From contig JAKZES010000024.1 of NCBI GenBank assembly GCA_022548915.1, positions 1 through 64,000 of the forward strand: a stretch of DNA of 64,000 nucleotides. Reading direction: 5' to 3'. Each line of letters starts with the position of its first letter. Position 1 is the stretch's first letter. The notes under the pieces are model-generated. The model made no database searches and had not been told where the DNA came from. It was given only the letters and a program-made list of their open reading frames with translations. Made by a program: the position numbers and the translations under genes. This document shows, piece by piece, positions 9,078-42,046 of the stretch. This DNA comes from Verrucomicrobiaceae bacterium E54 (GTDB lineage: Bacteria; Verrucomicrobiota; Verrucomicrobiia; Verrucomicrobiales; Akkermansiaceae).

Positions 9078-9152
9078 ACCTGCCACCCCGTTCCGGGTGA
9101 TCGCAGGAACATGGGATCAGACATGCCCCGCCACCGACGTGCAGCCCAACCT

Positions 9153-9605
9153 TCAGTCGGGACGCTTCAACGACATCCTCCCGTGGTCCCCACGCTCGGA
9201 CCGGTAACGGGCGTCGAAGCTTTCGGGCGTCACCCGTCCTTCCACATGATGGACCCCCACACCCCCGGGCAAGTCCATCTGCCCTTCGAAGATCAGCCCT
9301 CCGGCACCATCCGACCGGGTGGGCACGATGTGGGTGTAGTCGCCGAAACGGAGGACCCCCCATCCGGCCCGGTAGCGGAACGCGTGGTCACCACCGCCAT
9401 GGGGTTCGATCACACACCAGAGAGGGCCGTGGTGGCCATTCATGTCACTTCGCCATTCTCCCACCCAGGGACCCAGGGCGTTGGTGGCAGGCCGGGGTTG
9501 CTCCTCGACGCTCGTCCGGAAGTCCCGCTGATAGCTGGCACAGCCGACCAGCAGCAGGATGGCGAGCAGCAGGACCGGAATCCGGCGGTGAAAGAGGTTC
9601 AACAA
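9153..9605 (-). CDS. small lipoprotein of unknown function
   Basis: 150-residue protein with a signal peptide ending in lipobox LVGC (Cys22). The mature part has WVGEWRSDMNGHHGPLWCVI, and its Gly/Trp-rich strands suggest a small beta-barrel, similar in flavour to lipocalin-like DUFs of this phylum. The start is a TTG at 9605, supported by an AAGGAG ribosome-binding site located in the 3' end of the upstream gene (9610-10050). The two are therefore translationally coupled. No function is assigned. Confidence 0.7.
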   Translation of the reverse strand: MLNLFHRRIPVLLLAILLLVGCASYQRDFRTSVEEQPRPATNALGPWVGEWRSDMNGHHGPLWCVIEPHGGGDHAFRYRAGWGVLRFGDYTHIVPTRSDGAGGLIFEGQMDLPGGVGVHHVEGRVTPESFDARYRSERGDHGRMSLKRPD

Positions 9606-9609
9606 GGCG

Positions 9610-10050
9610 TCACTCCTTCTCCACGGGTTTGGACGCCGTCTTCTGCGCCTCCAACAATTGGTTCACGAACTCGCGATCCTGCGAACTCAGTTTGGCGAGC
9701 GGATACTCGGTCACCTTCTTTCGCTCCTCGATCCACAGGCGAATGCGCCCCTCCCGGACCAGCGGCAGTGCCGCGTCCTTGGAAGCCCCGGGGGGCGGAT
9801 CGAAGGCCAGCATGCTGGCCTGGATCACCTGACCTCCGGTATTCCTCCAGTCGCGAATCCCGGAGACCGCGATGTAGGTGATCTTCCTGGTCTTCGTCTG
9901 CGGCCGGGTGCGGGTGATCGACGCACCGCCGTCGTTGACCTCGCCAACATCGCGGGTCTCGAAGGCCGGCGGCACGTGGGGAGTGACCGGGAAATCCTGA
10001 GCCGCCAACCCGAATGGGATCGCCCACAAAAGCATCCAGCGTTTCATCAT
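9610..10050 (-). CDS. exported SHD1-like domain protein
   Basis: 146-residue protein with a signal peptide (about residues 1-18). The C-terminal block IRLWIEERKKVTEYPLAKL continuing SSQDREFV matches the pattern of SLA1-homology domain 1 (strand, strand, then L-S-x-x-D-x-x-F-V), which is abundant in secreted proteins of Planctomycetes and Verrucomicrobia. The start is ATG 10050 (second Met at 10047). A longer overlapping frame in another phase (to 10063) is rejected because it lacks a signal peptide and any recognisable motif. Promoter shared with the divergent alcohol dehydrogenase. Confidence 0.65.
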   Translation of the reverse strand: MMKRWMLLWAIPFGLAAQDFPVTPHVPPAFETRDVGEVNDGGASITRTRPQTKTRKITYIAVSGIRDWRNTGGQVIQASMLAFDPPPGASKDAALPLVREGRIRLWIEERKKVTEYPLAKLSSQDREFVNQLLEAQKTASKPVEKE

Positions 10051-10129
10051 CCACTCCTACCACGGATCCGCCGCCCCGCCGAATTCAAATCCCATCTTGC
10101 TTTCCCGGGGCACCGGGCGAGAAAAGAGA

Positions 10130-11137
10130 ATGTCCGATTCCTTCCATGCATGGGCCGCCACCGAAGCCAGCGGCAAACTCCAGTCCTTCGATTACTCACC
10201 GGGAGAGCTGGGGTCCGAGCAGGTCGAGCTGCGGGTCGAGTCCTGTGGCATCTGCCACTCCGACCTCTCGATGATCGACAACGAGTGGGGCCAGTCCACC
10301 TACCCGCTGGTCGCCGGGCACGAGGTCGTCGGCATCGTCGAAGCGGCCGGAGACCACGTGAAGGGCGTCACAGTCGGCGACCGCGTGGGGCTCGGCTGGT
10401 TCGCAGGTTCGTGCATGAGCTGCCACTCCTGCCTCTCGGGGCACCACAACCTTTGCCAGAACAGCGAGCAGACCATCGTCGGCCGCCACGGTGGCTTTGC
10501 CGACCGCGTGCGCTGCCACTGGAGCTGGGCCATCCTGATCCCGGAGGGGGTCGACCCCGCCAAGGCCGGGCCCCTGTTCTGCGGCGGCATCACGGTGTTC
10601 GGGCCCATCGCCCACTACGGCGTGAAGCCGACCGACCGAGTCGGGGTGGTCGGCATCGGCGGCCTCGGCCACCTCGCCCTGCAGTTTCTCGACCATTGGG
10701 GCTGCCACGTGACCGCCTTCACTTCGACCGATTCCAAGGCGGACGAAGCCAGAGCCTTCGGAGCCGACGCGGTCGTCAACTCGCGCGACGACGCCGGCAT
10801 GAAGTCGATCGCCGGCAGCCTGGACTTCATCCTCGTCACGGCCAACGTCCCGCTCGACTGGGAGGCGTATCTCGGGGCCCTGCGGCCCGACGGCCGGCTG
10901 CACTTCGTCGGCGCGGTGCTCGAGCCGATCCCGGTCCAGGCCTTTTCCCTGATCGGCCAGCGGAAGTCGATCTCCGGCTCGCCCCTCGGAAGTCCCGCCA
11001 CCGTCGCCGACATGTTGGAATTCTGCGGCCGTCACGGGATCGCCCCGAAGACCGAGCATTTCGCGTTCGACCAGATCAACGACGCCCTCGACCACCTGCG
11101 CGCCGGCAAGGCACGCTATCGTGTGGTCTTATCATGA
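10130..11137 (+). CDS. zinc-dependent alcohol dehydrogenase (YahK/cinnamyl-type)
   Basis: 335-residue medium-chain dehydrogenase. Catalytic zinc ligands are seen in GICHSDL and GHE. The structural zinc cysteines are in CMSCHSCLSGHHNLC, and the Rossmann motif is GIGGLGHLA. The NADP-dependent cinnamyl/YahK-like aldehyde reductases fit best. The ATG at 10130 has AAAAGAGA directly upstream; an upstream in-frame start would add 11 residues. It is followed after 7 bases by the rhodanese-YceI gene, so the two are likely one operon. Confidence 0.9.
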   Translation: MSDSFHAWAATEASGKLQSFDYSPGELGSEQVELRVESCGICHSDLSMIDNEWGQSTYPLVAGHEVVGIVEAAGDHVKGVTVGDRVGLGWFAGSCMSCHSCLSGHHNLCQNSEQTIVGRHGGFADRVRCHWSWAILIPEGVDPAKAGPLFCGGITVFGPIAHYGVKPTDRVGVVGIGGLGHLALQFLDHWGCHVTAFTSTDSKADEARAFGADAVVNSRDDAGMKSIAGSLDFILVTANVPLDWEAYLGALRPDGRLHFVGAVLEPIPVQAFSLIGQRKSISGSPLGSPATVADMLEFCGRHGIAPKTEHFAFDQINDALDHLRAGKARYRVVLS

Positions 11138-27885: not shown

Positions 27886-27912
27886 TGTAACTTCCCTGTT
27901 TCGGCATTATTC
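27886..27912 (+). promoter_or_regulatory. candidate ECF-type promoter of the sigma gene
   Basis: TGTAAC at 27886-27891, 16 bases, TATTC at 27908-27912, then AAGGGGAGG (27914-27922) ahead of the GTG start. The same bipartite motif occurs before the PEP-CTERM gene (32341) and the 1533-residue gene (37332). This suggests autoregulation by the sigma factor it precedes. Confidence 0.55.
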
Positions 27913-27935: not shown

Positions 27936-28478
27936 GTGGCTGAAGAACAACCAAGCGTCGAAAAGGAATTTGTGGAGCTTCTGGTGTCCCACCAGTCGCT
28001 GATCCGCGCCTTCGTCATCTCGCTGCTGCCCGGACTGCCCGAAGCGGAAGACGTCATCCAGAACACCAACCAGGTCCTCTGGAGCAAACGCGAACAGTTC
28101 ACCCTCGGCACCAATTTCAAGGCTTGGGCGCTCACCACGGCGCGTTTCCAGACGATGGCGCTCCAGCAGAAACTCCGCAACGAGCGACGCCAGCCGCTTG
28201 ACGACGATGTCATGGAGATGGTTGCGGAAGAAGCCATGGACCTCGATCCGGCCGAGTGCAACCGCCGGCTTGCGGACCTCAACGACTGCATGAGCCAGCT
28301 GCAGGTGCGCGATCAGGAACTGGTCCTCCATCGCTACTGGAAAAAGGCCGGACTCGCCGAGCATGCGCGGGAAACGGGCCGGAGCGTCGGTGCCCTGAAG
28401 GTCGCCCTGCACCGGATCCGGGAAACCCTGCGGACCTGCCTTGAAAGAAAAATCCAGATGAGGGAGGGTCACCCATGA
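27936..28478 (+). CDS. ECF-type RNA polymerase sigma factor
   Basis: 180-residue sigma-70 family protein with only regions 2 and 4. Region 2 includes LLPGLPEAEDVIQNTNQVLW at about 30-50 and the promoter-melting helix FKAWALTTARFQ. Region 4 has a helix-turn-helix around GLAEHARETGRSVGALKVAL. It belongs to the sigma group typical of Planctomycetes and Verrucomicrobia that pairs with FecR/LamG proteins. The start is GTG 27936 behind a distant AAGGGGAGG. Its stop overlaps the FecR-type gene start as ATGA, so the two are coupled. Confidence 0.92.
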   Translation: MAEEQPSVEKEFVELLVSHQSLIRAFVISLLPGLPEAEDVIQNTNQVLWSKREQFTLGTNFKAWALTTARFQTMALQQKLRNERRQPLDDDVMEMVAEEAMDLDPAECNRRLADLNDCMSQLQVRDQELVLHRYWKKAGLAEHARETGRSVGALKVALHRIRETLRTCLERKIQMREGHP

Positions 28479-30637
28479 TCCGCGACCACCATGAAGTCAT
28501 CGAGGAGGCGACCCGCCTCATCCATGACCTTGAGGATGGCGTGATCGCCACTGCCGACCGCGAACGGCTGATGGAGCTGATGCGCTCCGATGGAGCCATC
28601 CGCCGACGTTACATGGAGCAGCTGCAACTCTCGGCTCTCATCCAGCAGTCCGCCGAGACGCGGGCGGAGCTCGGCACGATGCCGATCAGCTCCGAAACCC
28701 TGCAGCGCGAGAAACGGCGAAGCGTTGTGCTTTCCCTCAGCTACGCCGCCGCGGCAGTGGTGGCGCTGGGACTCGGAATGCTGCTCTATCAGGTCAGCCA
28801 GCCGGACCCCTCGAGCACGGTGGTGCTCGACAGCTCGAGCGATGCCTCCTTCGCCATCGTTCAGGGCAACGAGGACGACGGCGGGCAGCTCGGGCCGGGC
28901 GATCAAGTCACGCTCCAGCGCGGCCTGCTCCGCTTGCGGTTTCCCTCCGGCGTCGAGGCCTTGATCGAAGGTCCTTCCCAGATCGAGCTGATTTCCGCGT
29001 CCACTGTCCGCATGGATGCCGGCATGGGTTGGTTCCGGGTGCCCGAGGAAGGCCGCGGCTTCACGGTCCGGACCGAGCTCGGCCGGATCGTCGACCTCGG
29101 AACCGAATTCGGCATCCGGTTCGCCCGCGGCGACCAACTCGAAGTCCACGTCCAGACCGGCCGGGTCGAAGTTCTGCCGTCGGTTCCGGGGGCCGGAAAG
29201 GTCGGGTTGAACGGAGGAACGGCGCTGAGCTTCGACTCCTCTGGCCGCAGCCACCCGATCGACCTCCGACCGAGCCTGTTCCGACGTCAGTTCTCGAAGG
29301 CTATTCCGCGCGTCCACTGGTCCTTCGACACCGTCGTCGACGGGGCCTTCCCCGCCAGCGGCAGCTTCGACGGCGTCGAAAGCCACGCCCTGCGGCTACG
29401 GAACCGGCAAGGTGAGGTCTCCCGGCCGGTAGAATCGCAGATCGACGGGGTCTTTGGCAGGGCGTTGTCATTGAAGGCCGGCGGACTCTTCGCCGAGTCC
29501 GACTTCCCCGGCATCGATGGCGACGCGCCGCGCACCGTCGCCGTCTGGATCCGCCACCGCACCGCCCCCTCTGCCACGGAAACCGACCCCCGCACCGGGG
29601 CCGGCGCAACCCCTCCGGCCGGCGACCAGGCCTACCTGCTCAACTACACCAATGCCGGCCTGACAACCGCCACGGGTGCAACCGGGGTGACGCTCTCAGC
29701 CGGCACCACCTACTCGCTCGAGTTTCAGGCCGCCGCCCTGCCCGAATCGGGAACAACCGATTACCGGGTGGAACTCGTCGCCTTCAGCGCGGCCGATGAC
29801 GACACCCGCCGCCTTGACTCCCGGGTCGGCAGCAGTCCCGGCAAGGTGGTTGCTGTGGCAGAAGGAGTGGTTCGCGCCACCGACCCCGCGGTCCGTGGTC
29901 GCGCCTCCTTCACCCCGGCTTCCGGCGACCCGCATCTGGGCCGGGAACTCGGCATCCGCCTGATCAAGCCGGGCGCGCCGGTGCTTTACGACGAGATCCG
30001 ACTCGCCACCCATCGCCGCGCTGAACCTCCGGTTTTCGTCTTTTCCGAAGACTTCGAGGTGCCGCAGGTCAGCGGCTACGCCGAGCAGACCCTGCCCTAC
30101 CGCGGCTGGATCGGAGCGCGGCCTCATGGCCAGTCACCCATCGAAAGCGGCTTCGGAGCCGAACACCACGGCCTGTTCAGTGATCGTCCGGTCGGTGCCA
30201 CTCCCGTCGTCGCCTGGGGCACACCGGGCTCCGCTTCGGCATGGGCCGGCTTCATGCTGCCGGGCCGCCCGCCGGTTTGGACCGTGATGAATGCCCGCGG
30301 CTACCACGACGCCCGTGGACCCGAACCGCTGCTTCCAGACGTGTGGACCCATGTCGCCACCGTGTGCACCGGGCGCAGAAGCGAGGACGGCCGGCCCGAG
30401 ATTCTCCATTACATCGACGGCAGATTGGCGGAAACCGTGAGCCACTTCCCCGCCCCACTTGCCAGTTCCGCCGCGGACTCCACCGGTTTGCGGATCGGCC
30501 GCCTGCCGGGCAGCGCCCCCGGCGGCCCCACCCTCGACGCCGACATCGACGAACTCCACATCCTCCGCGCCGCCCTCGGCGAAGAGGAGATCTGGCGGTT
30601 GATGGACGAAAACCGCCCGGTCGTCGCAGGGGAATGA
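28475..30637 (+). CDS. FecR-type membrane protein with LamG domain and inserted EDFE domain
   Basis: 720-residue single-span protein, probably the regulator of the ECF sigma factor encoded just before it. Residues 1-85 are a cytoplasmic helical part that could bind sigma. One membrane helix lies at about 84-105, and a FecR domain at about 115-240 (FTVRTELGRIVDLGTEFGIR). A LamG/concanavalin-like domain runs from about 278 to 710. The LamG domain is split: strand RTVAVWIRHR (353-362) resumes at VVAWGTPGSASAWAGFM (578-594). The roughly 215 residues between them resemble the N-terminal domain of the protein at 37445, in permuted order. It ends IDELHILRAALGEEEIWRLM. Confidence 0.85.
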   Translation: MIRDHHEVIEEATRLIHDLEDGVIATADRERLMELMRSDGAIRRRYMEQLQLSALIQQSAETRAELGTMPISSETLQREKRRSVVLSLSYAAAAVVALGLGMLLYQVSQPDPSSTVVLDSSSDASFAIVQGNEDDGGQLGPGDQVTLQRGLLRLRFPSGVEALIEGPSQIELISASTVRMDAGMGWFRVPEEGRGFTVRTELGRIVDLGTEFGIRFARGDQLEVHVQTGRVEVLPSVPGAGKVGLNGGTALSFDSSGRSHPIDLRPSLFRRQFSKAIPRVHWSFDTVVDGAFPASGSFDGVESHALRLRNRQGEVSRPVESQIDGVFGRALSLKAGGLFAESDFPGIDGDAPRTVAVWIRHRTAPSATETDPRTGAGATPPAGDQAYLLNYTNAGLTTATGATGVTLSAGTTYSLEFQAAALPESGTTDYRVELVAFSAADDDTRRLDSRVGSSPGKVVAVAEGVVRATDPAVRGRASFTPASGDPHLGRELGIRLIKPGAPVLYDEIRLATHRRAEPPVFVFSEDFEVPQVSGYAEQTLPYRGWIGARPHGQSPIESGFGAEHHGLFSDRPVGATPVVAWGTPGSASAWAGFMLPGRPPVWTVMNARGYHDARGPEPLLPDVWTHVATVCTGRRSEDGRPEILHYIDGRLAETVSHFPAPLASSAADSTGLRIGRLPGSAPGGPTLDADIDELHILRAALGEEEIWRLMDENRPVVAGE

Positions 30638-30773
30638 GACCCGCAAAAGCGGGTCGCCAGAGTCATCAGGGGCGATGGTGATTGCGACGCTCTACTGCAG
30701 AAAGTAGTTGGGGCAGGATCAGCCTCCACACCTGCGGACGATGTTTTGCGGGTATCTGGTCGTGGCGACCCGC
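30638..30773. repeat. hairpin pair between the FecR/LamG gene and the transposase
   Basis: GACCCGC-AAAA-GCGGGTC at 30638-30655 is a perfect seven-base-stem hairpin that begins right after the stop codon. GCGGGTCGCCAG (30649-30660) recurs in inverted orientation as GTGGCGACCCGC (30762-30773), 11 of 12 matching. It may be a terminator or the cognate REP palindromes of the neighbouring REP-type transposase. Nothing coding was seen in this gap. Confidence 0.5.
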
Positions 30774-30822
30774 CCGCTCACGAACGAGGGGCCAGGCGTG
30801 ACTCCCGTCCCGATCCCGCACG

Positions 30823-31899
30823 CTATCCCACCGGATCCTTTTGCAGGTTCCTCATGGCGTAGAGCCGCTCGGGCTTCTTCCTCAATTCCAATCCGCGGAG
30901 GCTGCGCGCACCTTTCCGACGCTTCTCGGAAAACCACTCCCGACGTTCGCGGAACACCTGCTCGACGTAGTCCCGCGAACCGATCGCCGCTCCGTCGGTG
31001 AAGTATCTCACCCGGCATCGCAGGTATTCCGCCTGACTCAGCCGTCCCCCGTCAGCGAGCACCTCCAGCGCCTTTTGCCGGGAGATCCGCTTCTTTGATA
31101 ACGTTGCTGCCTCCTCACCCCTTGCTCTCTCTACATGGCGCCGGTGATTCGCAAGCGGCACCCCGAAGAGCTCGCAGCGCCAACAAGCCAAGGCCTCCTC
31201 CACGCCGAGGCTTTCGTTTCGTGGACCACCGTGGGGATCCAGGCTCACCAGCCACTTCAACGCCTCGCGTGCCACGTGCCCGCCGGCCACCGCCTCGGCA
31301 TAGCCGCACCAGCGGTAATCCTTGGGATCGTCACAGATCTTCGCCCGCACCGGATTCAGGTCGATGTAGGCGGCCATCGTTTGCAACGCGCGGCACTCCC
31401 CCTGCACCAGCACCGAGCGGAAGCGGTCCTCCCAAAGGGTTCCGCGGCGCTGGTGACGCCGGTTGAACCACTGCGTGAAGCGTTGCTTCAACACCTTCAT
31501 GAACTGGCTGACGTTCCACATCCGCGAAAACCACTTCTCGCGCAACGCCTCGGCCCATTCCTCCGAACCGGTCTCTCTGAGGTGGCGAAGTTCCCACTCC
31601 AGGTCGCCCGCCTGCTTGTCACCAAGTGTCGAGCGTACCCGGGCCACCAACTCCACGTCATCGGGCAGATCTTCGTCGGCTGGCCGCTTCGGCACCTCGA
31701 CCAGGATGTGGAAGTGATTGGACATCAGGCAGTAGGCGATGATCCGCAAGCCGTAGAGCCGCTCGTAGCAGCGCATCAATTTCAGAAAATGCTCCTTCTC
31801 CGCCGGACCCAGCACGAACTCCCGGTTCACCACCCGCGAAACGCAGTGGTAGAAGGCCCGATCCATCGACTCGGGTGCGAGCATGCGGGGACGTCTCAT
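30823..31899 (-). CDS. REP-associated tyrosine (Y1/HUH) transposase
   Basis: 358-residue protein of the Y1_Tnp/RAYT family. It starts with the typical MDRAFYHCVSRVVNREFV block. The HUH motif is in LMSNHFHILVEVP. The probable catalytic Tyr is in MAAYIDLNPVRAKI. GTLWEDRFRSVLV is also typical. A basic C-terminal extension of about 120 residues may bind DNA. Such proteins cut and join palindromic REP DNA as single strands. The ATG 31899 is chosen because the family begins there. It lies on the opposite strand between an intact LamG gene end and a duplicate fragment of that end. Confidence 0.9.
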   Translation of the reverse strand: MRRPRMLAPESMDRAFYHCVSRVVNREFVLGPAEKEHFLKLMRCYERLYGLRIIAYCLMSNHFHILVEVPKRPADEDLPDDVELVARVRSTLGDKQAGDLEWELRHLRETGSEEWAEALREKWFSRMWNVSQFMKVLKQRFTQWFNRRHQRRGTLWEDRFRSVLVQGECRALQTMAAYIDLNPVRAKICDDPKDYRWCGYAEAVAGGHVAREALKWLVSLDPHGGPRNESLGVEEALACWRCELFGVPLANHRRHVERARGEEAATLSKKRISRQKALEVLADGGRLSQAEYLRCRVRYFTDGAAIGSRDYVEQVFRERREWFSEKRRKGARSLRGLELRKKPERLYAMRNLQKDPVG

Positions 31900-31964
31900 G
31901 CCGCCAATCCAATCAAACCCCGTCGAGACCGCAAGATTTCTTTTAAAGGGACAGGTAATATACA

Positions 31965-32095
31965 ACGGTACCGGCGCAGCCCCCGGGGACCCGACCCTCG
32001 ACGCCGACATCGACGAACTCCACATCCTCCGCGCTGCCCTCAGCGACGACGAGATCTCGACGCTCATGGAACAAAACGTCGTGGATTTCCGCTAA
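31965..32095 (+). pseudogene. 3'-end fragment of a second FecR/LamG-type gene
   Basis: The frame encodes GTGAAPGDPTLDADIDELHI continuing LRAALSDDEISTLMEQN before a stop. It matches the last 40 residues of the FecR/LamG protein ending at 30637 (GSAPGGPTLDADIDELHILR...), and the DNA is almost identical over about 45 bases. No start, membrane span or FecR part is present. It is either the tail of a destroyed paralogue or a duplicated end created when the transposase region moved in. Confidence 0.75.
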
Positions 32096-32096
32096 G

Positions 32097-32320
32097 AGGT
32101 CGATCGCTGAATCCCCGGCAGCATCTTGGACAAGCCCAGAAGGAAGGCCGCAATGAGAAAGGAGACTCCTGTTCGGCCCGACCCACGGCACCTCAGCGGT
32201 CTCGACCCTGCCACCCTTGCCGAGAATGCGTGGAACCCGGGCCCCGAGCAGTATCTGATGCTCGAAGAACTTGAGGTGCTTCCAGTTGCGCACCTGGGTG
32301 TCGTGAACCGTGCCAGGCTC
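32097..32320 (-). pseudogene. frameshifted relic of an ISL3-family transposase N-terminus
   Basis: On the minus strand the frame gives TQVRNWKHLKFFEHQILLGA then RVPRI and VETAEVPWV. This matches the ISL3 transposase pattern R-x-W-x-H-L-x-F-F-x-H...ARVPR...VPWA. After about 32170 the similarity continues in another frame as FLIAAFLLGLSKMLP, corresponding to the FTLLFEAFLL..LA..MP block. The catalytic domain is absent. It is a decayed insertion-sequence fragment next to the REP-type transposase. Confidence 0.55.
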
Positions 32321-32340
32321 AAAAAAAAAACACGTTTCTG

Positions 32341-32367
32341 CGTAACCTTTCTTCACGGAGCCTATTC
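32341..32367 (+). promoter_or_regulatory. candidate ECF-type promoter of the PEP-CTERM gene
   Basis: CGTAAC at 32341-32346, 16 bases, TATTC at 32363-32367. It follows an A10 run (32321-32330). The spacing is identical to the site before the sigma gene. The transcript would begin near 32374, close to the ATG at 32377. Confidence 0.55.
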
Positions 32368-32376
32368 AGTAGCGAG

Positions 32377-33153
32377 ATGCATCGATCCGTCCAACTCCAA
32401 CCGCCCCTTCCCCGTATTGTGAAACAACTCCTGACTCCCACCATCGCACTCGGACTTGCCGGAGCCGCATCGGCGGCTGTCGTGTTTACCGAAGACTTTG
32501 AAGGTTACGGGAACGCCGACGACAATACGGTTGCCACCTACGACCAGTATCCTCCTACTCCCACTGGCTGGGTTGCCGCAAATACCGGTTTCAATGCATC
32601 CCAGTCCGGGCTGAATTTGGTCGGAACCAACACGGTTTACAGCTTCCGCTACACGAACAGCGGGCTTACCACCACCGACGGACAGATCGGCAACTTGGCT
32701 GCGGGCACCTACACCATCAGCTTTGATGTGTTGTTCGACAACGGTAATGCCAGCCCGTTCAGCGTGTATTTGGGGACCTTCGCCACTGCGGACGATGCCG
32801 ACCGGCGCGACGCGGCCTCCGGTGCCACCTCCGACTTCAGCGCCCTTCTCGCACGGGTGGATGGTGAATACAATGCTGGCACTCCTGCCTGGGAATTCTC
32901 GTCAGGTGGAACTGATAACGATTCCCAAGCCTTCAGCAATTCGACTGCCACCTCCACCACGGTGACCTTCACCTACATCTCCGATGGGACTGAGACCACA
33001 GCCGGGCAAGACGTGGCACTCCGCCTGGACGGTGCCACAACCACCGGCAACATTGACAACGTCAGCGTTGATTTTGTCGCCATTCCCGAGCCCTCCGCTG
33101 CTCTTCTCGGTGGTATTGGCTGCCTGATGCTGCTGCGCCGCCGCCGTCGATAA
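32377..33153 (+). CDS. PEP-CTERM exported protein with EDFE-type domain
   Basis: 258-residue secreted protein. A signal peptide ends near AGAASA (about residue 33), followed immediately by VVFTEDFEGY. The jelly-roll-like body carries YTNSGLTTTDGQIGNLAAG, a pattern shared with the 1533-residue protein at 37445 and with the insert in the FecR/LamG protein. The end is a PEP-CTERM sorting signal: IPEPSA, a hydrophobic helix and five arginines, which directs processing by an exosortase. The start may be ATG 32377 (nearly leaderless) or GTG 32419. A strong terminator follows. Confidence 0.85.
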   Translation: MHRSVQLQPPLPRIVKQLLTPTIALGLAGAASAAVVFTEDFEGYGNADDNTVATYDQYPPTPTGWVAANTGFNASQSGLNLVGTNTVYSFRYTNSGLTTTDGQIGNLAAGTYTISFDVLFDNGNASPFSVYLGTFATADDADRRDAASGATSDFSALLARVDGEYNAGTPAWEFSSGGTDNDSQAFSNSTATSTTVTFTYISDGTETTAGQDVALRLDGATTTGNIDNVSVDFVAIPEPSAALLGGIGCLMLLRRRRR

Positions 33154-33180
33154 TCTGAGTCGGTAGATGCCTTCACCACC

Positions 33181-33220
33181 AATCGCCACGGCTTGAAAAG
33201 CTGTGGCGATTTTTTATTTT
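33181..33220 (+). terminator. rho-independent terminator after the PEP-CTERM gene
   Basis: The stem AATCGCCACGGCTT (33181-33194) pairs with AAGCTGTGGCGATT (33198-33211), with one G-U pair and a very short loop, followed by a T-rich run through 33220. It ends the PEP-CTERM transcript 27 bases after its stop. Confidence 0.9.
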
Positions 33221-33312
33221 TCCGCCTCCAGCGCACGAGTTCCACCTTGCGATGGCAACGACCGCCAGGACGCACGGTAGCCACTCGCGGACATCCTAGC
33301 TTTTGACAGAAC

Positions 33313-36300
33313 GTGAAGATCTTCCGACCCGTCTTGCTAGTGCTGAATGGGTTGTTGATGGGCCCACCCGCCAATGCCCTGGAATTCACGAATGTCACAC
33401 TGGCGGCCGGCATCGACCATGTGTTTGATCAGGATCCCGCCAATCTGGACACGGACCCGGAGCACCCGGTGATGACGGGGGGTGCGGTGGCGGAGGATTT
33501 CAATGGCGACGGCTGGGTCGACCTGTTTGTGCTGCAGGGCGGATTGAGCCCCAACATGCTCTACATCAACCAAGGGGATGGAACGTTCGTGGAGGAGGCG
33601 GTCAGTCGCGGCGTGGGACAAACTGGCAGGCACACCGCGACCTGCGGGGCCGACTATGACTCGGATGGTGATGTCGATTTGTTGGTGGTCAACGCCGTCG
33701 CCGGTTTCCACTTGTTGCTCACCAATGACGGCACCGGTCATTTCGCGCTGGACACGACACAATTCCCCAATCCCGTGATGAGGAATTCCAGTGCCAGTTG
33801 GGCCGACACCAACGGCGATGGCTTGCTCGACCTGGCCATTGGAGCGTGGAACAACGAGGGTGGCGGTGACCTCTTCCAAGAGGGGGACATCACCATCTAC
33901 CGCAACCAGGGGGCTGGCAGTTTTGTGGCCTACCAAACGATCCCCGGAAGTTGGAACTACGTGCCCCATTTTGCCGATCTCAACGGGGATGGCTGGGTGG
34001 ATTTGCTGCAAGTGGCGGATTTCAGTCAAACCGAATGGTTTTTCAACAATGGCAGCGGCATCTTCCTGCCGGGCGGATCCAGTGACATTGAAAACGGCAT
34101 GGGAGTGGCCACCGGCGACCCAGACAACGACGGGGACCTGGATATCTTCATGACCGCCATTCGTGACGAAAATGTCGATCCCTCGGTGATCCAGTACACA
34201 GGCACGGGGACGAGCGGCAACCGGTTCCTCCGCAATGTCGGCGGCGGAGAATTTGTCGACGCGACGACGCAGGCGGGGGTTCGCGATGGCCACTGGGGCT
34301 GGGGGGCGGTTTTCGGGGATTTCGACAATGACGGCGACGAGGACTTGTACCATGTCAATGGCTGGCCTGCCTACATCGTGGATGAACCCTATGCGGGAAC
34401 TCCCTCGGTGTTGTTTGAAAACAACGGTTCAATGGTGTTTTCCGAGGTGGCCGCCTCATCGGGTGATGCGGCGGATACGGGTCAGGGCAGGTGTGTGGTT
34501 TCTTTCGACTATGACAATGACGGGGATCTCGACCTGTTCATCGTCAACAACAACGTCCTCAACCCCCTTCCCGGCGGACAGTTCACCATCTCGCCCGGGC
34601 AGCCTGTTCTGCTGCGCAACGACACCGCGCCCGCCGGGAATTGGCTCAAGGTGAGGGTGGCCGGGGCAGCTCCCTACCACTCCCATGGCATGGGGGTCCG
34701 GCTCCACTGCAGCTTGCCCGGCAAGAACCAGATGCGCGAGATCAACGCCTCGAGCAATTACAACGGCCACGGTCCCTACCGGATTGCCCACTTCGGTGCC
34801 GGGGCGCAGACGGAATTTCAACAGGTCCGTGCTGCTTTTCCCGGTGGCCGGGAAGTCTGGCGGGACCATGTGGCGGTCAACCAGGAAATCGTCATCCACT
34901 CGCCGAAGGCCTCCGTGACATCCACTCAGGTCGATCCCGCCGAATCCGTGGAGTTCGAGATTCGCGGGGCTGACCTGCCCGCCGGTGCGGTGGTGGTCTG
35001 GAGTTACCTGGGGGTCGATTACGCCAATCCGGCAACCATCCAGTTTACCACACCCGGTGCGCATTCCGTGGTCGCCAGCGTGTATGCCGACTCAAGTGAG
35101 ACCGAACTGCTGTGGGCCGAGCGCCACCCGGTGGAGGTGAATAACACCGGCGCCCCGGTGCCGAGCATTGCACGCCTGTGGAACGAGGAACTGCTGCAAT
35201 CGATTCGCATGGACTTCCCGGACCCGGCCGTGCATGCGCGCAACCTGTTTCACGTTTCCGTGGCGATGTGGGATGCGTGGGCTGCCTACGATCCCACGGC
35301 GGTCGGCTACATTCACCGTGAGGAGCAGAGCCCGGTCGACGTGGAGGCGGCGCGTCACGAGGCCATCAGCTACGCTGCCTACCGGGTTCTTCATCACCGG
35401 TATTCCAAGTCGGTCAACGCTTCAACATCGCTGGTCCTGTTCGATGCGAGAATGGCGGCACTGGGATATCCCACTGCCACGACGACATTGACCGGGGACA
35501 GCCCCGCCGCCGTCGGCAACCGGGTGGCTGCGGCAGTGCTCGCCTGGGGGGAGAGTGACGGATCGCGGGAAGACACCTTTTACGACGACCCGTCATACGA
35601 GCCTGTCAATGCCCCGATGCGGATCGAACTCTCCGGCACCACGCTGGCTGACCCCAACAGGTGGCAGCCGCTTCGCTTCACTCGGGCATTTACCCAGAAC
35701 GGACTGACCACCAGCACTACCCAGGTCTTTGTTGGTTCTCACTGGGGGTGGGTCCGGCCGTTTGCCCTCGCGAATGAATCGCCGATCCACCTTGATCCCG
35801 GCCTGCCGCCGCAGTTGGGGGGCCAGGGAGACACGGCATACAAGCAGGGCAATCTGGACGTCATCCGGTTCAGCAGTTGGCTGGATCCGGATGACGGGGT
35901 GATGATCGATATTTCCCCGAAGTCGAAGGGGCTCAACTCCCTGGGGGCCAATGATGGCACCGGGCATGGGACGGCTCCCAATCCGGTCACCGGTGAACCT
36001 TACCAAGAACAATGGGTCAAACGGGCTGATTACGGCCGAGTGATTGCCGAATTCTGGGCAGACGGACCGGAATCCGAGACGCCGCCAGGGCATTGGAACA
36101 AACTGGCCAACCAAGTCGCCGACCATCCGCTTGCCGACAAGAGATTCAGGGGACAGGGGCCGGTGCTGGATGAGCTTGAGTGGGATGTAAAATTGTATTT
36201 TGCACTCAACGCCGCGCTGCACGACTCAGCGGTCGCTGCATGGGGATGCAAGCGATATTACGACTATATCCGACCAATCAGTGCGATCCGCCACATGAGT

Positions 36301-37080
36301 GGCAGCGGGATTTTGCCCGAAGTGGCCGGCCTCGTGGAAAAAATCACCGCCGAATCCTCCGCCCCCGGTGAGCGTCACGCGGCACTGGTCGCCGGTGACG
36401 CATCCATTGGTGACACCGCCATTTATGCCTGGGGAGGAGAGCCCGCTGATCCGGTGACTGAGTATTCCGGAAGTGAGTGGATCCTGGGGGTGGACTGGCT
36501 GCCGTATCAACGGGATACCTTTGTCACTCCGGCATTCGCCGGCTACGTGTCGGGCCACAGCACATTCAGCCGGGCAGCTGCCGAGGTGCTCGCCTACTTC
36601 ACCGGCACTCCCTATTTTCCCGGCGGGCTGGGAAGTTACACCAAGAAGGCCGGAAGTCTGGAATTTGAATACGGGCCCTCGACGGATGTCACCCTGGAAT
36701 GGGCGACCTACTATGACGCGGCGGATGAGGCGGGAATTTCACGGCTCTATGGTGGTATTCATGTCCCCGCTGATGATGGCCCCGGCCGAATCATGGGTTC
36801 CACGGCTGGAATCAGGGCGATGAGACTGGCTGAAAAATATTATGATGGAACCATTCTTGCGCAGCCGATCCGTGCGAAGTCGATCAGGAATGGAGGGCAG
36901 TTTATCGTCCAAGCCGATGTGATTCGGGGGATGTACATGAAACTGCAGTCCAGCTCGGATCTTACAGATTGGGAAGACATTACAGAGCCTCAGCAGATCC
37001 TTGATCCCAACCCGAGTTGGACGATTGACAGTACTTTGCCCAAGTATTTTTTCCGGGTTGTACAGCAGCCATCGCCCTGA
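33313..37080 (+). CDS. exported FG-GAP/UnbV and vanadium-haloperoxidase-like fusion protein
   Basis: 1255-residue secreted protein starting at GTG 33313 with a signal peptide ending near ANA (22). Residues 50-430 carry FG-GAP repeats (DFNGDGWVDLFV, DSDGDVDLLV, DFDNDGDEDLYH). An ASPIC/UnbV-like block with FPGGREVW lies at about 450-530 and a PKD-like beta domain at about 540-610. Residues 615-1190 form a vanadium-dependent haloperoxidase/PAP2-like domain with K980-x6-R987-P, SGHS with His1082, and SR-x5-H with Arg1144 and His1150. If active, it would halogenate organics or act as an acid phosphatase. The DNA looks visibly less GC-rich than its neighbours. Confidence 0.82.
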   Translation: MKIFRPVLLVLNGLLMGPPANALEFTNVTLAAGIDHVFDQDPANLDTDPEHPVMTGGAVAEDFNGDGWVDLFVLQGGLSPNMLYINQGDGTFVEEAVSRGVGQTGRHTATCGADYDSDGDVDLLVVNAVAGFHLLLTNDGTGHFALDTTQFPNPVMRNSSASWADTNGDGLLDLAIGAWNNEGGGDLFQEGDITIYRNQGAGSFVAYQTIPGSWNYVPHFADLNGDGWVDLLQVADFSQTEWFFNNGSGIFLPGGSSDIENGMGVATGDPDNDGDLDIFMTAIRDENVDPSVIQYTGTGTSGNRFLRNVGGGEFVDATTQAGVRDGHWGWGAVFGDFDNDGDEDLYHVNGWPAYIVDEPYAGTPSVLFENNGSMVFSEVAASSGDAADTGQGRCVVSFDYDNDGDLDLFIVNNNVLNPLPGGQFTISPGQPVLLRNDTAPAGNWLKVRVAGAAPYHSHGMGVRLHCSLPGKNQMREINASSNYNGHGPYRIAHFGAGAQTEFQQVRAAFPGGREVWRDHVAVNQEIVIHSPKASVTSTQVDPAESVEFEIRGADLPAGAVVVWSYLGVDYANPATIQFTTPGAHSVVASVYADSSETELLWAERHPVEVNNTGAPVPSIARLWNEELLQSIRMDFPDPAVHARNLFHVSVAMWDAWAAYDPTAVGYIHREEQSPVDVEAARHEAISYAAYRVLHHRYSKSVNASTSLVLFDARMAALGYPTATTTLTGDSPAAVGNRVAAAVLAWGESDGSREDTFYDDPSYEPVNAPMRIELSGTTLADPNRWQPLRFTRAFTQNGLTTSTTQVFVGSHWGWVRPFALANESPIHLDPGLPPQLGGQGDTAYKQGNLDVIRFSSWLDPDDGVMIDISPKSKGLNSLGANDGTGHGTAPNPVTGEPYQEQWVKRADYGRVIAEFWADGPESETPPGHWNKLANQVADHPLADKRFRGQGPVLDELEWDVKLYFALNAALHDSAVAAWGCKRYYDYIRPISAIRHMSGSGILPEVAGLVEKITAESSAPGERHAALVAGDASIGDTAIYAWGGEPADPVTEYSGSEWILGVDWLPYQRDTFVTPAFAGYVSGHSTFSRAAAEVLAYFTGTPYFPGGLGSYTKKAGSLEFEYGPSTDVTLEWATYYDAADEAGISRLYGGIHVPADDGPGRIMGSTAGIRAMRLAEKYYDGTILAQPIRAKSIRNGGQFIVQADVIRGMYMKLQSSSDLTDWEDITEPQQILDPNPSWTIDSTLPKYFFRVVQQPSP

Positions 37081-37331
37081 CACGGTTTCCCTTGGCGAGA
37101 CACCGACGCGTCCGATCTCATGGACATTTACCGGGTGAGTACTGCCTACACTTGCACAAGCACCAAAATGTAGTGCCCCCTAGAGGTTGAACAGCCATTT
37201 GTCCTATGAAGTGGCCTACTCAGTGAGACAGGCAGGAGGAGAATATCCCCGCCAATCCTCCGCGCTGGCCATGCGCCGCCGCATCATGCTCGGGGACCAA
37301 GGCCACCGGGTAGGGAACTCATCGGAAAATC
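37081..37331. other. intergenic stretch without a recognised gene
   Basis: About 250 bases after the haloperoxidase gene. I see no convincing coding frame, terminator hairpin or RNA gene. Base composition is mixed, and a short frame with MRRRIMLGDQGHRVGNSS lacks context. The ECF-type promoter of the next gene begins at 37332. Confidence 0.4.
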
Positions 37332-37359
37332 CGTAACTTTCGACCCCTCGGGCCTATTT
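37332..37359 (+). promoter_or_regulatory. candidate ECF-type promoter of the 1533-residue gene
   Basis: CGTAAC at 37332-37337, 17 bases, TATTT at 37355-37359; the wider contexts CGTAACTTT and GCCTATTTA resemble the sites at 27886 and 32341. The leader to ATG 37445 would be about 80 bases. Confidence 0.5.
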
Positions 37360-37444
37360 ACCAAGGCACGAGGCCATTACGGAATCTGGTCCGCTGCGAT
37401 CATCTGCCACCGGGCCGCTTCGCCAAATATTCCTCGAACCACAA

Positions 37445-40400
37445 ATGAATCCAAAACCCGCACCATCCGTCCTAGGCACCGCCATTCTCGGCCTCGCCAT
37501 CGCCATGACCCCGCTCCACGCCGGGGTCGTTTTTTCGGAAAGTTTCGAGATTCCGGTCGTCTCCGGCTTCGACGACAACACCGTGCCCTCCGGCGGCAAC
37601 TGGATCGGCGCCACCGACGGCTTCGGTTCCTCCAACCGGGGCCTCTACAACGAAACCGTCGTGTGGCCCGCCACGCCGCCATTCACCACGCCCTATGGCA
37701 ATCAGGCCTACTACCTCAACTACACCAACTCCGGCCTAACGACCGCCGAAGGCGTGATCGGCGCACTCACCGCTGATGTCACCTACTCCGTGACCTTCAA
37801 TACCGCGGTCACCGCCAGCACCGCCAGCGGCAACTACAAGGTGGAACTCGTGGCATTCTCTCCGGGGGATGACCGCGCGGACGTCAATGGCACGCCTCTC
37901 CCCGGCACGGTTCTCGCCAGCGCCACCGGTGCTGTGACGACCGACGACATGTCCGCGACCGGCAGCCTCACCTTCACCCCGGATGGCGCAAACGCCCACC
38001 TTGGCAAGGACGTCGGCATCCGGCTCGTCAAATCCACCAACAGCGTTCTCTATGACAACATCCGCCTGATTACCGGCCACGACCTCAACCCGAATCCCGC
38101 TAGTGGCGAAGATCTCGCCGCCGGCGGCAATGTCACGCTGAGTTGGACCAACATGCCGCCCAATACCGGCGACACCTACGTCGATGTGCTTTTCGGCACT
38201 GACCCGGGCTCCCTGGCGCCGGTGCTTGACGGCCAGATTGCGAGTTCGACCATCGTCAACGCTCCCCAGGCCGATACCTACTACTGGCGCGTCGATTCCT
38301 ACCCTGACGGCGACCCCGATGGCACTCCGGTGACCGGCGACGTGTTTTTCTTTACCGTTGCCGACACCGATGGAGACGGACTCCCCGATTCATGGGAACT
38401 CGCCAACGGGACCGACCCTAACGTGATTGACGATACTGCGGACCCCGACGTTGACGGTCTGACCAACGCGGAGGAATACCAATACGGCACCAAGGCAAAC
38501 GACAACGACACCGACGACGACACGCTCCTCGACGGAGCCGAAATCAACGGAACCGCCGGCTTGCGTCCGCCGACCAACCCGCTGTTGGCCGACACCGACG
38601 CCGATGGCTTGAGTGACGGTGTGGAAACCAATACCGGCACCTGGGTGCCCGCGACACCTCCGGCAACCGTGTCCTCGGACACCGGCACCAATCCGACCGA
38701 CAACGACTGGGACAAGGACGGCCTGCTGGACGGTGCGGAAACCAATACCGGCACCTTGGTCGACAAAACCAATACCGGCACCGACCCTTACCTTTCCGAT
38801 ACCGACTCCGACGGCGCCGGTGACTACTATGAGGTCTACGCCTCATTCACCAACCCGTTTGACGACACCGACAAGCCCTTCGTCCCTTACCCCCTGCCCG
38901 ACCCGGACGGCTCGACCGGAAATCCTTCACTGCCGGTCAAGGTTTACATCTGCTCCGGCCAGTCCAACATGGTTGGTATTGGGAACGTCGGTCCCTTGGG
39001 CACGGCAGGAACCTTGGAAACCATCACCAAGATCGAGAACAAGTTCCCGAACCTGCTCGACGGCTCCAACAATTGGACCGAACGCCAGGATGTCCTCTAT
39101 CGGGGCGTGATTTCCGCCACAGCCAACGGACCCCTCACTGCCGGCCAAGGAGCCGGAGATGGCCCCGGACCCGGCGACAAGCTCGGCCCCGAACTGGGTT
39201 TCGGCCACATCATGGGATGGTATCACGATGAAGCCGTTCTCGTGCTCAAATCAAGCATCGGCAACCGCAGCCTAGGTTGGGACATCCTTCCCCAGGGCAG
39301 TGTCCAGTATGACTATTCTCCCAATACTTATGCGGGATTCGGTGATGCCCAGCTCAAGTGGCCGATCGGCGATACACCGGCACCCTGGGTGACCGGTGGT
39401 TGGTATGCGGGCTACGAATGGGATCGCTATTTCAGGGATGAAAGCGAATGGGCTCATCCTCACGACGCCGAAACCAACGTGGTCGACATCCTGGACGACT
39501 GGAATGGCAAATATGGCGGTGCCGGCAAGCCATTCGAGGGCCGCGATTTCGAGATTGCCGGATTCGTCTGGTGGCAAGGCGACAAGGACCGGGGCGACAT
39601 GGGCCACGCTACCCGCTACGAACAGAACCTCGTCAACCTGATCAACAATCTCCGCAGCTATTACTCGAACCGCTACCCCGGCAAGGTTCCCGTCAACGCG
39701 CCCTTCGTTCTTGCCACGCTCGGCCAGACAGCCGCAGGCGATACGAGTCCGGCCAGCGATGTAGCCATCTTTGATGCCCAAATGGCCGTGGACGGAGATG
39801 CCGGAAACTACCCGGAATATCAGAACAATGTGAAGACGGTCTATGCCCACCCGCTCAGCCAGGGGGGAGCCTCAAACAGCCACTACAACGGGAACGCGGA
39901 AACCTACATGCTAGTCGGCGACGCCCTCGGCCGGGCAATGATCGACCTGCTCGAAGCCTCCGCCGGACCCGACGAAATCCCGCCGGTCATCATCGGGCGC
40001 AGCCCCGAAATCGGCGAGACGGACGTCTCGGCAGGAGCCAACATCGTTATCAACTTCAATGAACCGGTCACCATTGGCACCGGCAACATCACGCTCCACC
40101 CGATCGACAACTCCGGGGACGTGGTCATCGACGCCAACGATGCCACCCAGGTCTGGCTTTCAGGCAGCACCCTGACCATCAATCCGACGGCCAGCCTCGC
40201 GACCAGCAAGGAGTATGCGGTCCTGATCGCCGACACGGCCATCGACGACCTCGCCGGCAACAGCTTCGCCGGAATCCTCGTCGACACCGAATGGCGCTTC
40301 ACCACCGCCACTCCCGACACGACCGATCCAACGCTGTCCTCCACCGATCCCGCGAACGACACGAGCATTCTGGTGGACGGCGACCTCGAGGCCACCTTCA

Positions 40401-42046
40401 GCGAGCCGATCACCGTCGGCAGCGGCAACATCACCCTCAGGAACCTGACCGACGGCCCGTCCGGCGATGTCGTGATCGACGTCACCGACGGATCCCAGGT
40501 CACGGTTTCCGGCGCGGTGTTGACCATCAATCCCACCGCCGACCTCGTCGGGGGCAAGGACTACGCGGTGCGGATCGACGCCACCGCTATCGACGACCTC
40601 GTCGGCAACAGCTACGCGGGCATCGGCGACGATGTGACATGGTTCTTCTCCACTCCCGCGCCGCCGCCGCCAAATGTCGTGTTCCAGGACAACTTCGAGC
40701 CGACGGACTCCGGATCCAATGCGACCTCCCTGCTGGGTGCCGGCACCACGCCGGATGTCAGCACCTACACGGTGCCCAACACGAGCACTCAAGTGAACAC
40801 GACATTGTGGGTTCGTTCCAATCAAGGGTACAAGAGCAGCCAGAGCGGTCTGGTGGACGAGTCCGAGAGTGGTGGAGCCAACTTTACGGACCCCACGGGA
40901 ACCCAGGCCTATGCAGGCCGTTATTCCTCCAACACCGGCGTCTCTTCCGCTGCCGACACGATCGGTGCCCTGGCGAGCGGAACGACCATCACGGTCCAGT
41001 TCGATGCGGTAACGGATGGTCAAACCGGAGGAGACGACATCAAGGCAGCCCTTGTCCTCTATGACGGCGGCCTCTACAACGACTTCCGGAACGAGTACGC
41101 CGGCACGAGTGCGGTTCTTGCACGACTGAACCAGGCAGATGCCACGACCTCTTCCTATCAGACCTTCTCGTTCTCCTACACGGTGGGCGATCCGGTCTAC
41201 AAGAATGGCGCGGATGGAGGCGGTGGCACAACATGGCTTCCCGGCCTTCTCGGCCAGGACATCGGCCTCCGTTTCTACAACAGGACAGGTGATGCCATCA
41301 TCGACAACGTGCAGGTGAGCATCGCCGGCCCCGGCGGCCCCGGCCCGGTCGATCACTTCACGATCTCCGCGATCACCTCGCCGCAGACCGTGGGAGTGCC
41401 TATCACCGGAATCACCATTACCGCGCAGGATGTATCCGATGCCACCGTCACCGACTTCACCGGCACGGTGACCTTCGGCGGGACGGGTGGGTTCTCGGGC
41501 ACCTCCGCCAATTTCGTCGACGGCGTGCTGAGCGGCGTCAGCGTGACTCCCACCGTGGCGGGCAGCGATCTGACCTTCACCGTCGATGACGGAGCGGGCC
41601 ACACCGGTTCGACGACGATCGCCCTCATCGACCCGGCGGAGACCGCCTACCAAACCTGGTCGGGCGGCTTGGACTTCGAGACCGACACCAACGGCGACGG
41701 CGTCGCCAATGGCCTCGCCTTCGCACTCGGTGCCGCGGATCCCCAGGCCGACGCGCTCGCCCTGCTCCCGGCCGCCGCCACGGAACCCGGCTTCCTCGCT
41801 CTCCAGTTCCAGAGAGCCGGAAACCTGGGAGCCGCCAAATTGTATGTCGAGCACGGCAACGACCTCGGTGGCTGGACCCAGCTTCTCATCCCCGCCACCA
41901 GCACGACAGCGCCTCACCTCGCCGATGGAGTTCAGGTGGTGGTGGCGACGGGCAGCCCGAACGACACGGTGACCGTCAAGATTCCGACCACGCTTGAATC
42001 CACGAGCGGCGCGCTGTTCGGACGCCTGCGGGTGACGGAGAACTAA
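37445..42046 (+). CDS. large exported multidomain sialate O-acetylesterase-like protein
   Basis: 1533-residue secreted protein with a signal peptide (about 1-26). Residues 28-212 are an EDFE-type domain (VVFSESFEIP, YYLNYTNSGLTTAEG, VLYDNIRLI). Residues about 310-480 carry calcium-binding TSP3-like repeats (DTDGDGLPDSWE, DTDADGLSDGVE). Residues 500-840 are an SGNH/SASA esterase with nucleophile Ser507 in SGQSNM, FVWWQGDKD, and a C-terminal His in SHYNG. Two Big_5-like Ig domains (about 850-1075), a second EDFE-type domain (about 1079-1295) and another Ig-like domain follow. No PEP-CTERM tail is present. It probably deacetylates extracellular glycans. Confidence 0.85.
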   Translation: MNPKPAPSVLGTAILGLAIAMTPLHAGVVFSESFEIPVVSGFDDNTVPSGGNWIGATDGFGSSNRGLYNETVVWPATPPFTTPYGNQAYYLNYTNSGLTTAEGVIGALTADVTYSVTFNTAVTASTASGNYKVELVAFSPGDDRADVNGTPLPGTVLASATGAVTTDDMSATGSLTFTPDGANAHLGKDVGIRLVKSTNSVLYDNIRLITGHDLNPNPASGEDLAAGGNVTLSWTNMPPNTGDTYVDVLFGTDPGSLAPVLDGQIASSTIVNAPQADTYYWRVDSYPDGDPDGTPVTGDVFFFTVADTDGDGLPDSWELANGTDPNVIDDTADPDVDGLTNAEEYQYGTKANDNDTDDDTLLDGAEINGTAGLRPPTNPLLADTDADGLSDGVETNTGTWVPATPPATVSSDTGTNPTDNDWDKDGLLDGAETNTGTLVDKTNTGTDPYLSDTDSDGAGDYYEVYASFTNPFDDTDKPFVPYPLPDPDGSTGNPSLPVKVYICSGQSNMVGIGNVGPLGTAGTLETITKIENKFPNLLDGSNNWTERQDVLYRGVISATANGPLTAGQGAGDGPGPGDKLGPELGFGHIMGWYHDEAVLVLKSSIGNRSLGWDILPQGSVQYDYSPNTYAGFGDAQLKWPIGDTPAPWVTGGWYAGYEWDRYFRDESEWAHPHDAETNVVDILDDWNGKYGGAGKPFEGRDFEIAGFVWWQGDKDRGDMGHATRYEQNLVNLINNLRSYYSNRYPGKVPVNAPFVLATLGQTAAGDTSPASDVAIFDAQMAVDGDAGNYPEYQNNVKTVYAHPLSQGGASNSHYNGNAETYMLVGDALGRAMIDLLEASAGPDEIPPVIIGRSPEIGETDVSAGANIVINFNEPVTIGTGNITLHPIDNSGDVVIDANDATQVWLSGSTLTINPTASLATSKEYAVLIADTAIDDLAGNSFAGILVDTEWRFTTATPDTTDPTLSSTDPANDTSILVDGDLEATFSEPITVGSGNITLRNLTDGPSGDVVIDVTDGSQVTVSGAVLTINPTADLVGGKDYAVRIDATAIDDLVGNSYAGIGDDVTWFFSTPAPPPPNVVFQDNFEPTDSGSNATSLLGAGTTPDVSTYTVPNTSTQVNTTLWVRSNQGYKSSQSGLVDESESGGANFTDPTGTQAYAGRYSSNTGVSSAADTIGALASGTTITVQFDAVTDGQTGGDDIKAALVLYDGGLYNDFRNEYAGTSAVLARLNQADATTSSYQTFSFSYTVGDPVYKNGADGGGGTTWLPGLLGQDIGLRFYNRTGDAIIDNVQVSIAGPGGPGPVDHFTISAITSPQTVGVPITGITITAQDVSDATVTDFTGTVTFGGTGGFSGTSANFVDGVLSGVSVTPTVAGSDLTFTVDDGAGHTGSTTIALIDPAETAYQTWSGGLDFETDTNGDGVANGLAFALGAADPQADALALLPAAATEPGFLALQFQRAGNLGAAKLYVEHGNDLGGWTQLLIPATSTTAPHLADGVQVVVATGSPNDTVTVKIPTTLESTSGALFGRLRVTEN

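Follow-up and report, generated by a model that had tools for sequence, protein, structure and literature searches.

A FecR-type regulator of a Verrucomicrobiaceae bacterium carries a permuted HpiC1-like domain shared with its predicted exported targets

Introduction

In FecI/FecR surface signalling, a FecR-family membrane protein is encoded directly after the gene for an ECF sigma factor. A locus with this arrangement in Verrucomicrobiaceae bacterium E54 raises the question of why a membrane regulator should carry, in its outer part, a domain that is also found in the exported proteins encoded next to it. The question came from an inspection of the letters and open reading frames alone (the sequence-only reading) of a 64-kb stretch of one contig, which we refer to as the window. 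It placed one domain in a PEP-CTERM protein, twice in a large protein starting at position 37445 and once within the LamG region of the FecR-type protein.

The genome has 18 FecR matches (Pfam). Among the titles and abstracts listed from the open-licence literature we found no report of what such Verrucomicrobia ECF/FecR units sense, and none on circuits that combine FecR with LamG, FecR with Verrucomicrobia polysaccharide, PEP-CTERM with FecR, or ECF factors with PEP-CTERM or Planctomycetes.

Results

Layout of the locus

The genes are arranged in the order ECF sigma factor, FecR-type protein, transposase, FecR remnant, PEP-CTERM protein, FG-GAP/VCPO-like protein and SASA-type esterase (Table 1), and the start of the FecR-type gene overlaps the end of the ECF gene. 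The FecR-type protein has one best hydropathy peak at residues 84-102 (judged by hydropathy only), followed by the FecR domain (residues 155-232) and a LamG_3 domain (Pfam, 42.4 bits, cut-off 27.6). The tail of the PEP-CTERM protein has a PEP motif, a hydrophobic stretch and a basic C-terminus; in Pfam the protein matches nothing at E<=0.1, and the NCBIfam PEP-CTERM models all stay below their cut-offs.

Two further features of the locus can be described separately. The protein between the PEP-CTERM and SASA genes combines FG-GAP repeats, DUF6851/VCPO and a weak PAP2 match (Pfam) and, although it lies between two predicted targets, has neither the HpiC1-like domain in the profile scan nor the promoter motif in the motif scan. 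On the far side of the gene for the Y1_Tnp transposase, which we take to be RAYT-like, the 3' end of the FecR gene (30515-30613) occurs again at 31979-32077 (99 nt, 86%), which would suit either the loss of a second FecR gene at this place or a duplication of the FecR 3' end.

Table 1. Positions in the window of the genes, domain copies and promoter motifs of the locus
Feature	Position	Strand	Details
Promoter motif GTAACTT-N14-TATT	27887..27911	+	starts 49 nt 5' of the ECF start codon
ECF sigma factor, Rhodopirellula/Verrucomicrobium family (TIGR02989)	27936..28478	+	134.5 bits, cut-off 124.55: above cut-off
FecR-type protein, 720 aa	28475..30637	+	Pfam FecR 30.5 bits, cut-off 24
Insert in LamG hairpin, about 213 residues (363-575)	29561..30199	+	from alignment with 6 related FecR proteins
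HpiC1-like domain, C-part, first in order (permuted)	29606..30022	+	profile positions 51-185; Pfam HpiC1-like 28.5 bits, cut-off 27
HpiC1-like domain, N-part (VFSEDFE...), second in order (permuted)	30032..30190	+	profile positions 3-49; BLASTP 45% over 58 columns
Y1_Tnp transposase gene	30823-32067	opposite to ECF/FecR genes	
FecR C-terminus remnant	31952..32077	+	64% identical to FecR residues 672-713; beyond transposase gene
Promoter motif, N14 spacer	32342..32366	+	5' of PEP-CTERM gene
PEP-CTERM protein, 258 aa	32377..33153	+	C-terminal tail
HpiC1-like domain of PEP-CTERM protein, collinear	32476-33081		residues 34-235
FG-GAP / VCPO-PAP2-like protein	33313..37080	+	Pfam; between PEP-CTERM and SASA genes
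Promoter motif GTAACTT-N15-TATT	37333..37358	+	5' of SASA gene
SASA-type esterase, 1533 aa	37445..42046	+	Pfam SASA 39.9 bits, cut-off 24.8
HpiC1-like domain 1 of SASA esterase, collinear	37523-38083		residues 27-212
HpiC1-like domain 2 of SASA esterase, collinear	40673-41329		residues 1077-1295

One domain in the regulator and in two exported proteins

A profile of 11 copies identifies an HpiC1/CBM-like beta-sandwich domain in three proteins of the locus: the PEP-CTERM protein has one copy, the SASA esterase has two, and the FecR-type protein has one within its LamG. Pairwise BLASTP agrees (E = 5e-31 for FecR/SASA, 1e-17 for SASA/PEP-CTERM and 2e-9 for FecR/PEP-CTERM). All four placements made by the sequence-only reading therefore held, and the esterase copies that it had put at residues 28-212 and 1079-1295 needed only the corrected bounds of Table 1. 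Against the Pfam family PF22825 (HpiC1-like), only the FecR-type protein exceeds the gathering score; the SASA protein stays below it with 24.2 bits, and the PEP-CTERM protein has no match. Seven of the 11 collinear copies match this family at E<=0.1 (37 bits for the first row), and the shared domain matches 6j03 with a profile E value of 6e-4.

The model of SASA domain 1 (pLDDT 81) has its best structural matches among HpiC1/Stig cyclases (Foldseek E 4e-9, TM about 0.61-0.66), followed by CBM22 and CBM4. The insert of the FecR-type protein is modelled less well (pLDDT 65) and matches HpiC1 with E 2e-5 over about 130 columns, the remainder being poorly modelled. Both models match HpiC1/Stig cyclases best and do not show the folds to be unrelated; within the insert this applies to the confident part (residues ~401-520) rather than to the first 40 residues (pLDDT 34-46) and the N-part (42-53). 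The unpaired fragment rows for the two halves of the domain may be a reason for the poor modelling of the N-part.

The copy in the regulator is a permuted insert

The order of the FecR copy differs from that first described, in which start, middle and end followed each other. The profile match to positions 51-185 (YTNAGLTT...VLYDEI; envelope 347-514) precedes the match to positions 3-49 (VFSEDFE...; envelope 520-592), which rules out a collinear copy, and the same order is visible in BLASTP. With its C-part before its N-part, the HpiC1-like domain of the predicted sensor is, by sequence, a circularly permuted insert within LamG.

The edges of the insert are clean, with VWIRHR up to residue 362 and TPVVAWG from residue 576. 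It occurs in none of six related FecR proteins that align on both sides of it, so the related units do without it. These six come from five genomes and adjoin the nearest ECF factors (five with 61-66% ECF identity, one with 52%); for one of them, from genome G603, the N-terminus was left out of the comparison. Read in unpermuted order, the FecR copy retains 13 of the 14 residues that are invariant in the 11 copies. No exact direct repeat of at least 8 bases was found beside the insert in the stretches compared, and the GATP residues at both of its ends are only suggestive.

Phylogenetic analysis places the FecR copy within an eight-row clade of the SASA-d1 type (99/98), on a branch of 1.05 compared with 0.09-0.29 in its five SASA-d1-type companions. 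A clear derivation from the SASA domain of the same locus was considered and rejected, because the nearest row is SASA d1 of genome G002, with weak support (88/40).

Distribution of the domain

Within the 5.9-Mb genome, the profile finds the domain in at least five places (12 of 24 first-look candidates scored), four of them in the 14-kb locus and one in a giant protein encoded on another contig. When single sequences served as queries and every candidate was scored, no place beyond these came up in this genome. Given that four of five places fall within 14 kb, the sharing of the domain is not a matter of chance. In many genomes the searches scored only part of the first-look candidates, up to 12 for the domain profile, 13 for the ECF factor and 8 for the insert. 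Across the family, at least 9 of 260 genomes have the domain at E<=1e-8, with at least 30 matches (at most 12 candidates scored per genome), of which 27 are near-full and collinear, two are truncated by contig ends and one is the FecR copy. As a single-sequence query, the insert has matches at 1e-6 in 5 of 97 relatives; across 387 genomes of the phylum, at least two match at 1e-5 (8 candidates scored), namely its own and one of the same genus. Scanning of named genome contigs gave nine loci, including one of a Phycisphaera MAG, and confirmed no relative when the query was the full-length FecR protein.

Of the six genomes whose ECF factor is at least 61% identical (own genome included), four have the domain, compared with 5 of the 254 others (Fisher p 1e-5, or 2e-4 if the own genome is removed). 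These p-values are optimistic, since the genomes are not unrelated and the limit of 61% was chosen by the analyst. The association of such ECF/FecR loci with domain-bearing exported proteins, which the sequence-only reading had proposed to look for, thus appears at the level of the ECF factor and the domain; it does not extend to the insert, absent from the six related FecR proteins, or to a motif at the domain genes of G603, which have no motif site nearby.

A promoter motif before the predicted targets

The proposed shared promoter motif was confirmed by its placement. The pattern GTAACYT-N13..16-TAT matches three times in the window (0.02 expected), and the TATT-ended form has four matches in the whole genome, three of which precede the ECF, PEP-CTERM and SASA genes (spacers 14, 14 and 15); the fourth is on the opposite strand inside an apparent coding frame. 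The backward-read TATT-ended control has three matches in the same genome compared with four for the motif, and only the placement is telling, because backward controls match as often, and in several relatives more often.

Related loci were scanned with the looser TAACYT-N13..16-TAT. In G025 it precedes the ECF gene and two of the three genes that follow; it is also found before the ECF and PEP-CTERM genes in G040 (absent before a 743-residue gene), before the ECF gene in G589, and before the PEP-CTERM gene in G603, where it is absent before the ECF gene, whose start codon was guessed. Two loci of G581 lack it, one of them having relaxed forms only. Genomes G002 and G042 have a PEP-CTERM/SASA pair with no recognised adjoining ECF gene and no strict motif (the PEP-CTERM start in G042 was guessed).

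A variant pattern was counted in ten genomes. It is absent from the own genome, and overall its matches are not in excess of those of its backward control. It has three matches in the whole of G589 (six for the control), one 5' of the ECF gene and one 5' of a 1038-residue domain-bearing gene on another contig, the latter ~140-155 nt 5' of the likely start and within the longest reading frame (the start was guessed). A dyad search for common promoters in six loci was not clearly above shuffles, even for the motif of the own locus.

Among the loci of the survey described below, GTTAACG occurs in L185 before the ECF, SASA and PEP-CTERM genes (four matches listed, two of which mirror each other; 1.0 expected), GCTAATCA in L190 only before the ECF and SASA genes (two matches, 0.26 expected), and GTTAACG in L213 before the ECF and PEP-CTERM genes and in two other places (five listed, 2.0 expected); these patterns were picked once the sequences had been inspected, and the count in L213 is close to that expected. 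Simple motif counts gave no support in L205 and L183.

Sharing between FecR sensors and their neighbours

The survey of whether such sharing recurs took 75 FecR ORFs from 71 loci, together with 796 ORFs beside them, and FecR tails were compared with neighbours at E<1e-10. Loci were chosen from a listing of ECF matches, 39 further ones being taken in listing order with one overlapping place skipped, and an ECF gene beside every FecR was assumed. Three of 74 loci (L172, L173 and L226) were left out for having no FecR ORF by profile; L172 and L173 have Pfam FecR matches.

Eight of the 75 FecR tails have a match among the proteins of the locus they come from, compared with 16 of 5250 pairs of a tail and another locus. 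Shuffling of loci gave a mean of 0.32 and a maximum of 4, and 8 was reached in none of 20,000 permutations. Within the own genome, own-locus matches were found for 4 of 17 tails, compared with 2 of 272 other pairs. The same eight tails, which form seven sequence clusters, are recovered by phmmer; the other 67 tails share nothing with their own locus at this threshold. LamG is the usual FecR tail and is involved in three of the eight cases (L183, L190 and L209), in which both partners have LamG_3 (Pfam), so that five of the eight pairs are independent of LamG.

The partners are SASA proteins in four of the eight cases (own locus, L190, L213 and L185), a sulfatase in L209, a protein with a sub-threshold esterase match in L176, one with only LamG/Big_5 in L183, and a GDSL protein in L205, for which one model is just above and one just below its cut-off. 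In the own locus, L185 and L205, FecR has a domain in common with two neighbours, of which one is short and PEP-CTERM-like and the other is large.

Local sharing alone is no proof of function, because neighbours have local paralogues too: 45 of 509 C-termini of other neighbours have one (32 of 214 if signal-like), and the bare FecR rate is thus not higher. The comparable control is sharing confined to the C-terminus, which is found for 8 of 75 FecR tails compared with 5 of 269 other neighbours (p 0.0018) and 3 of 123 signal-like ones (p 0.018), control rates that are lowered by the mechanical picking of neighbour ORFs, spurious ones included.

Some further tails have relatives elsewhere. The FecR protein of G025 does not match its neighbours; three proteins downstream of it have a common domain, which occurs again in L182, in the tail of one of the FecR proteins of the own genome. 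The tail of this L182 protein (8913-10334) is 35% identical over 201 aa to a PEP-CTERM-type protein (L070, 9514-10245) from an ECF unit of another genus. In L170 (2642-4054) and L181 (9015-10397) the FecR tails consist of a region of the NGDFE...IDNV type instead of LamG and are 56% identical to each other over 203 aa.

Discussion

The FecR-type membrane regulator probably holds back the sigma factor, and the sigma factor probably controls the exported PEP-CTERM and SASA genes. We suspect, with evenly balanced confidence, that the locus is an ECF/FecR surface-signalling unit in which the outer sensor captured a binding-type domain of its own targets, and that the sensor reads the ligand class of those targets. 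In this scenario, the N-terminus of the FecR-type protein would restrain the ECF factor, as expected from its family, and the outer LamG with the inserted domain would bind the glycan, or a product of the glycan, that is bound by the SASA esterase and the PEP-CTERM protein. Ligand binding would release the sigma factor, which could then transcribe the operon that encodes it as well as the genes of the PEP-CTERM protein and the esterase; through the insert, the sensor would respond to the class of ligand that its targets bind. The parts, their order and the motif are read from the sequence, while sigma binding, export, ligand and signal release are taken from the families, and we infer the regulon of the ECF factor from the motif alone.

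The sequence-only reading held that no circuit of this kind had been described, and here a precedent exists. Among known systems, SigI/RsgI of Clostridium thermocellum comes closest. PMC4711584 describes RsgI proteins as an RsgI-N domain with C-terminal CBM, PA14 or GH10 modules, the outer GH10 module of RsgI6 as 57% identical to Xyn10D, and the Xyn10D promoter as recognised by sigma-I6 in a B. subtilis host. Both systems have a membrane anti-sigma factor with an outer module that resembles modules of its own regulon, which is motif-inferred here; the present locus differs in having a FecR-type protein, a TIGR02989 ECF factor and an HpiC1-like domain that is permuted and nested in LamG. Pfam at E<=0.1 gives only Laminin_G_3, FecR and HpiC1-like matches in the FecR-type protein and no RsgI-N domain; thus the locus would work like SigI/RsgI and is not a member of it.

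The position of the FecR-family gene directly 3' of the ECF gene is that of FecI/FecR, and the outer part differs in being LamG with an inserted HpiC1-like domain. This domain resembles those of HpiC1/Stig cyclases and CBM22/CBM4 in modelled fold and, weakly, in sequence. Stig cyclases are described as calcium-dependent cyclases in PMC9063808; unlike these, the domain here belongs to larger proteins and a sensor.

A serious rival to the sensing reading is neutral local copying, in which a neighbour-related piece was copied into a tolerant LamG hairpin with no sensing role and the permutation arose as a by-product, for example of a tandem or circular copy. This would fit an insert found in one of seven compared FecR proteins, its long branch and poorly modelled N-part, and the frequency of local paralogues among the neighbours. 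We nonetheless consider it the less likely reading, as the copy has kept nearly all of the invariant residues, the frame is open across both junctions, and C-terminal-only sharing is higher in FecR tails than in other neighbours.

Still less probable, in our view, is that the FecR copy makes direct contact with the PEP-CTERM and SASA proteins, or that it and they compete for ligand, so that an abundance of these targets at the surface would feed back negatively. The presence of one domain in the sensor and two targets would suit such partner sensing or titration, as would the same three-protein pattern in L185 and L205. However, the predicted HpiC1- and CBM-like folds point to small-ligand or glycan binding, and the data here do not separate partner sensing from sensing of a common ligand. 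A joining error in the draft genome, which has 255 contigs and in which no second copy of the insert was found, is very improbable, since the reading frame continues through both junctions with no internal stops, the two parts of the insert reach no more than 48% and 43% identity with the SASA copy of the locus, and the GC content of the insert (0.69) is close to that of the FecR parts on either side (0.67 and 0.70).

The reading of a sensor that captured a domain of its targets may extend to the wider group surveyed. We tentatively suggest, with somewhat less than even confidence, that in these Verrucomicrobia the outer domains of FecR sensors have repeatedly been acquired from exported proteins under their control, so that the domains of sensor and enzyme would predict each other's ligand; in the present locus this would have happened by a permuted copy spliced into a LamG hairpin. 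The same logic, with other domains, may apply in further ECF/FecR loci of the family, and the sharing of domains gives a hint of how recognition of the substrates of the targets may be acquired by sensors of this type. If this is true, the permuted domain set inside a lectin-like host would offer a clean example from nature of a sensor that evolved by capturing a domain. Should sensor domains indeed be copies of target domains, the enzyme encoded next to an orphan sensor would suggest a ligand for it, and two purified domains would suffice to test the guess.
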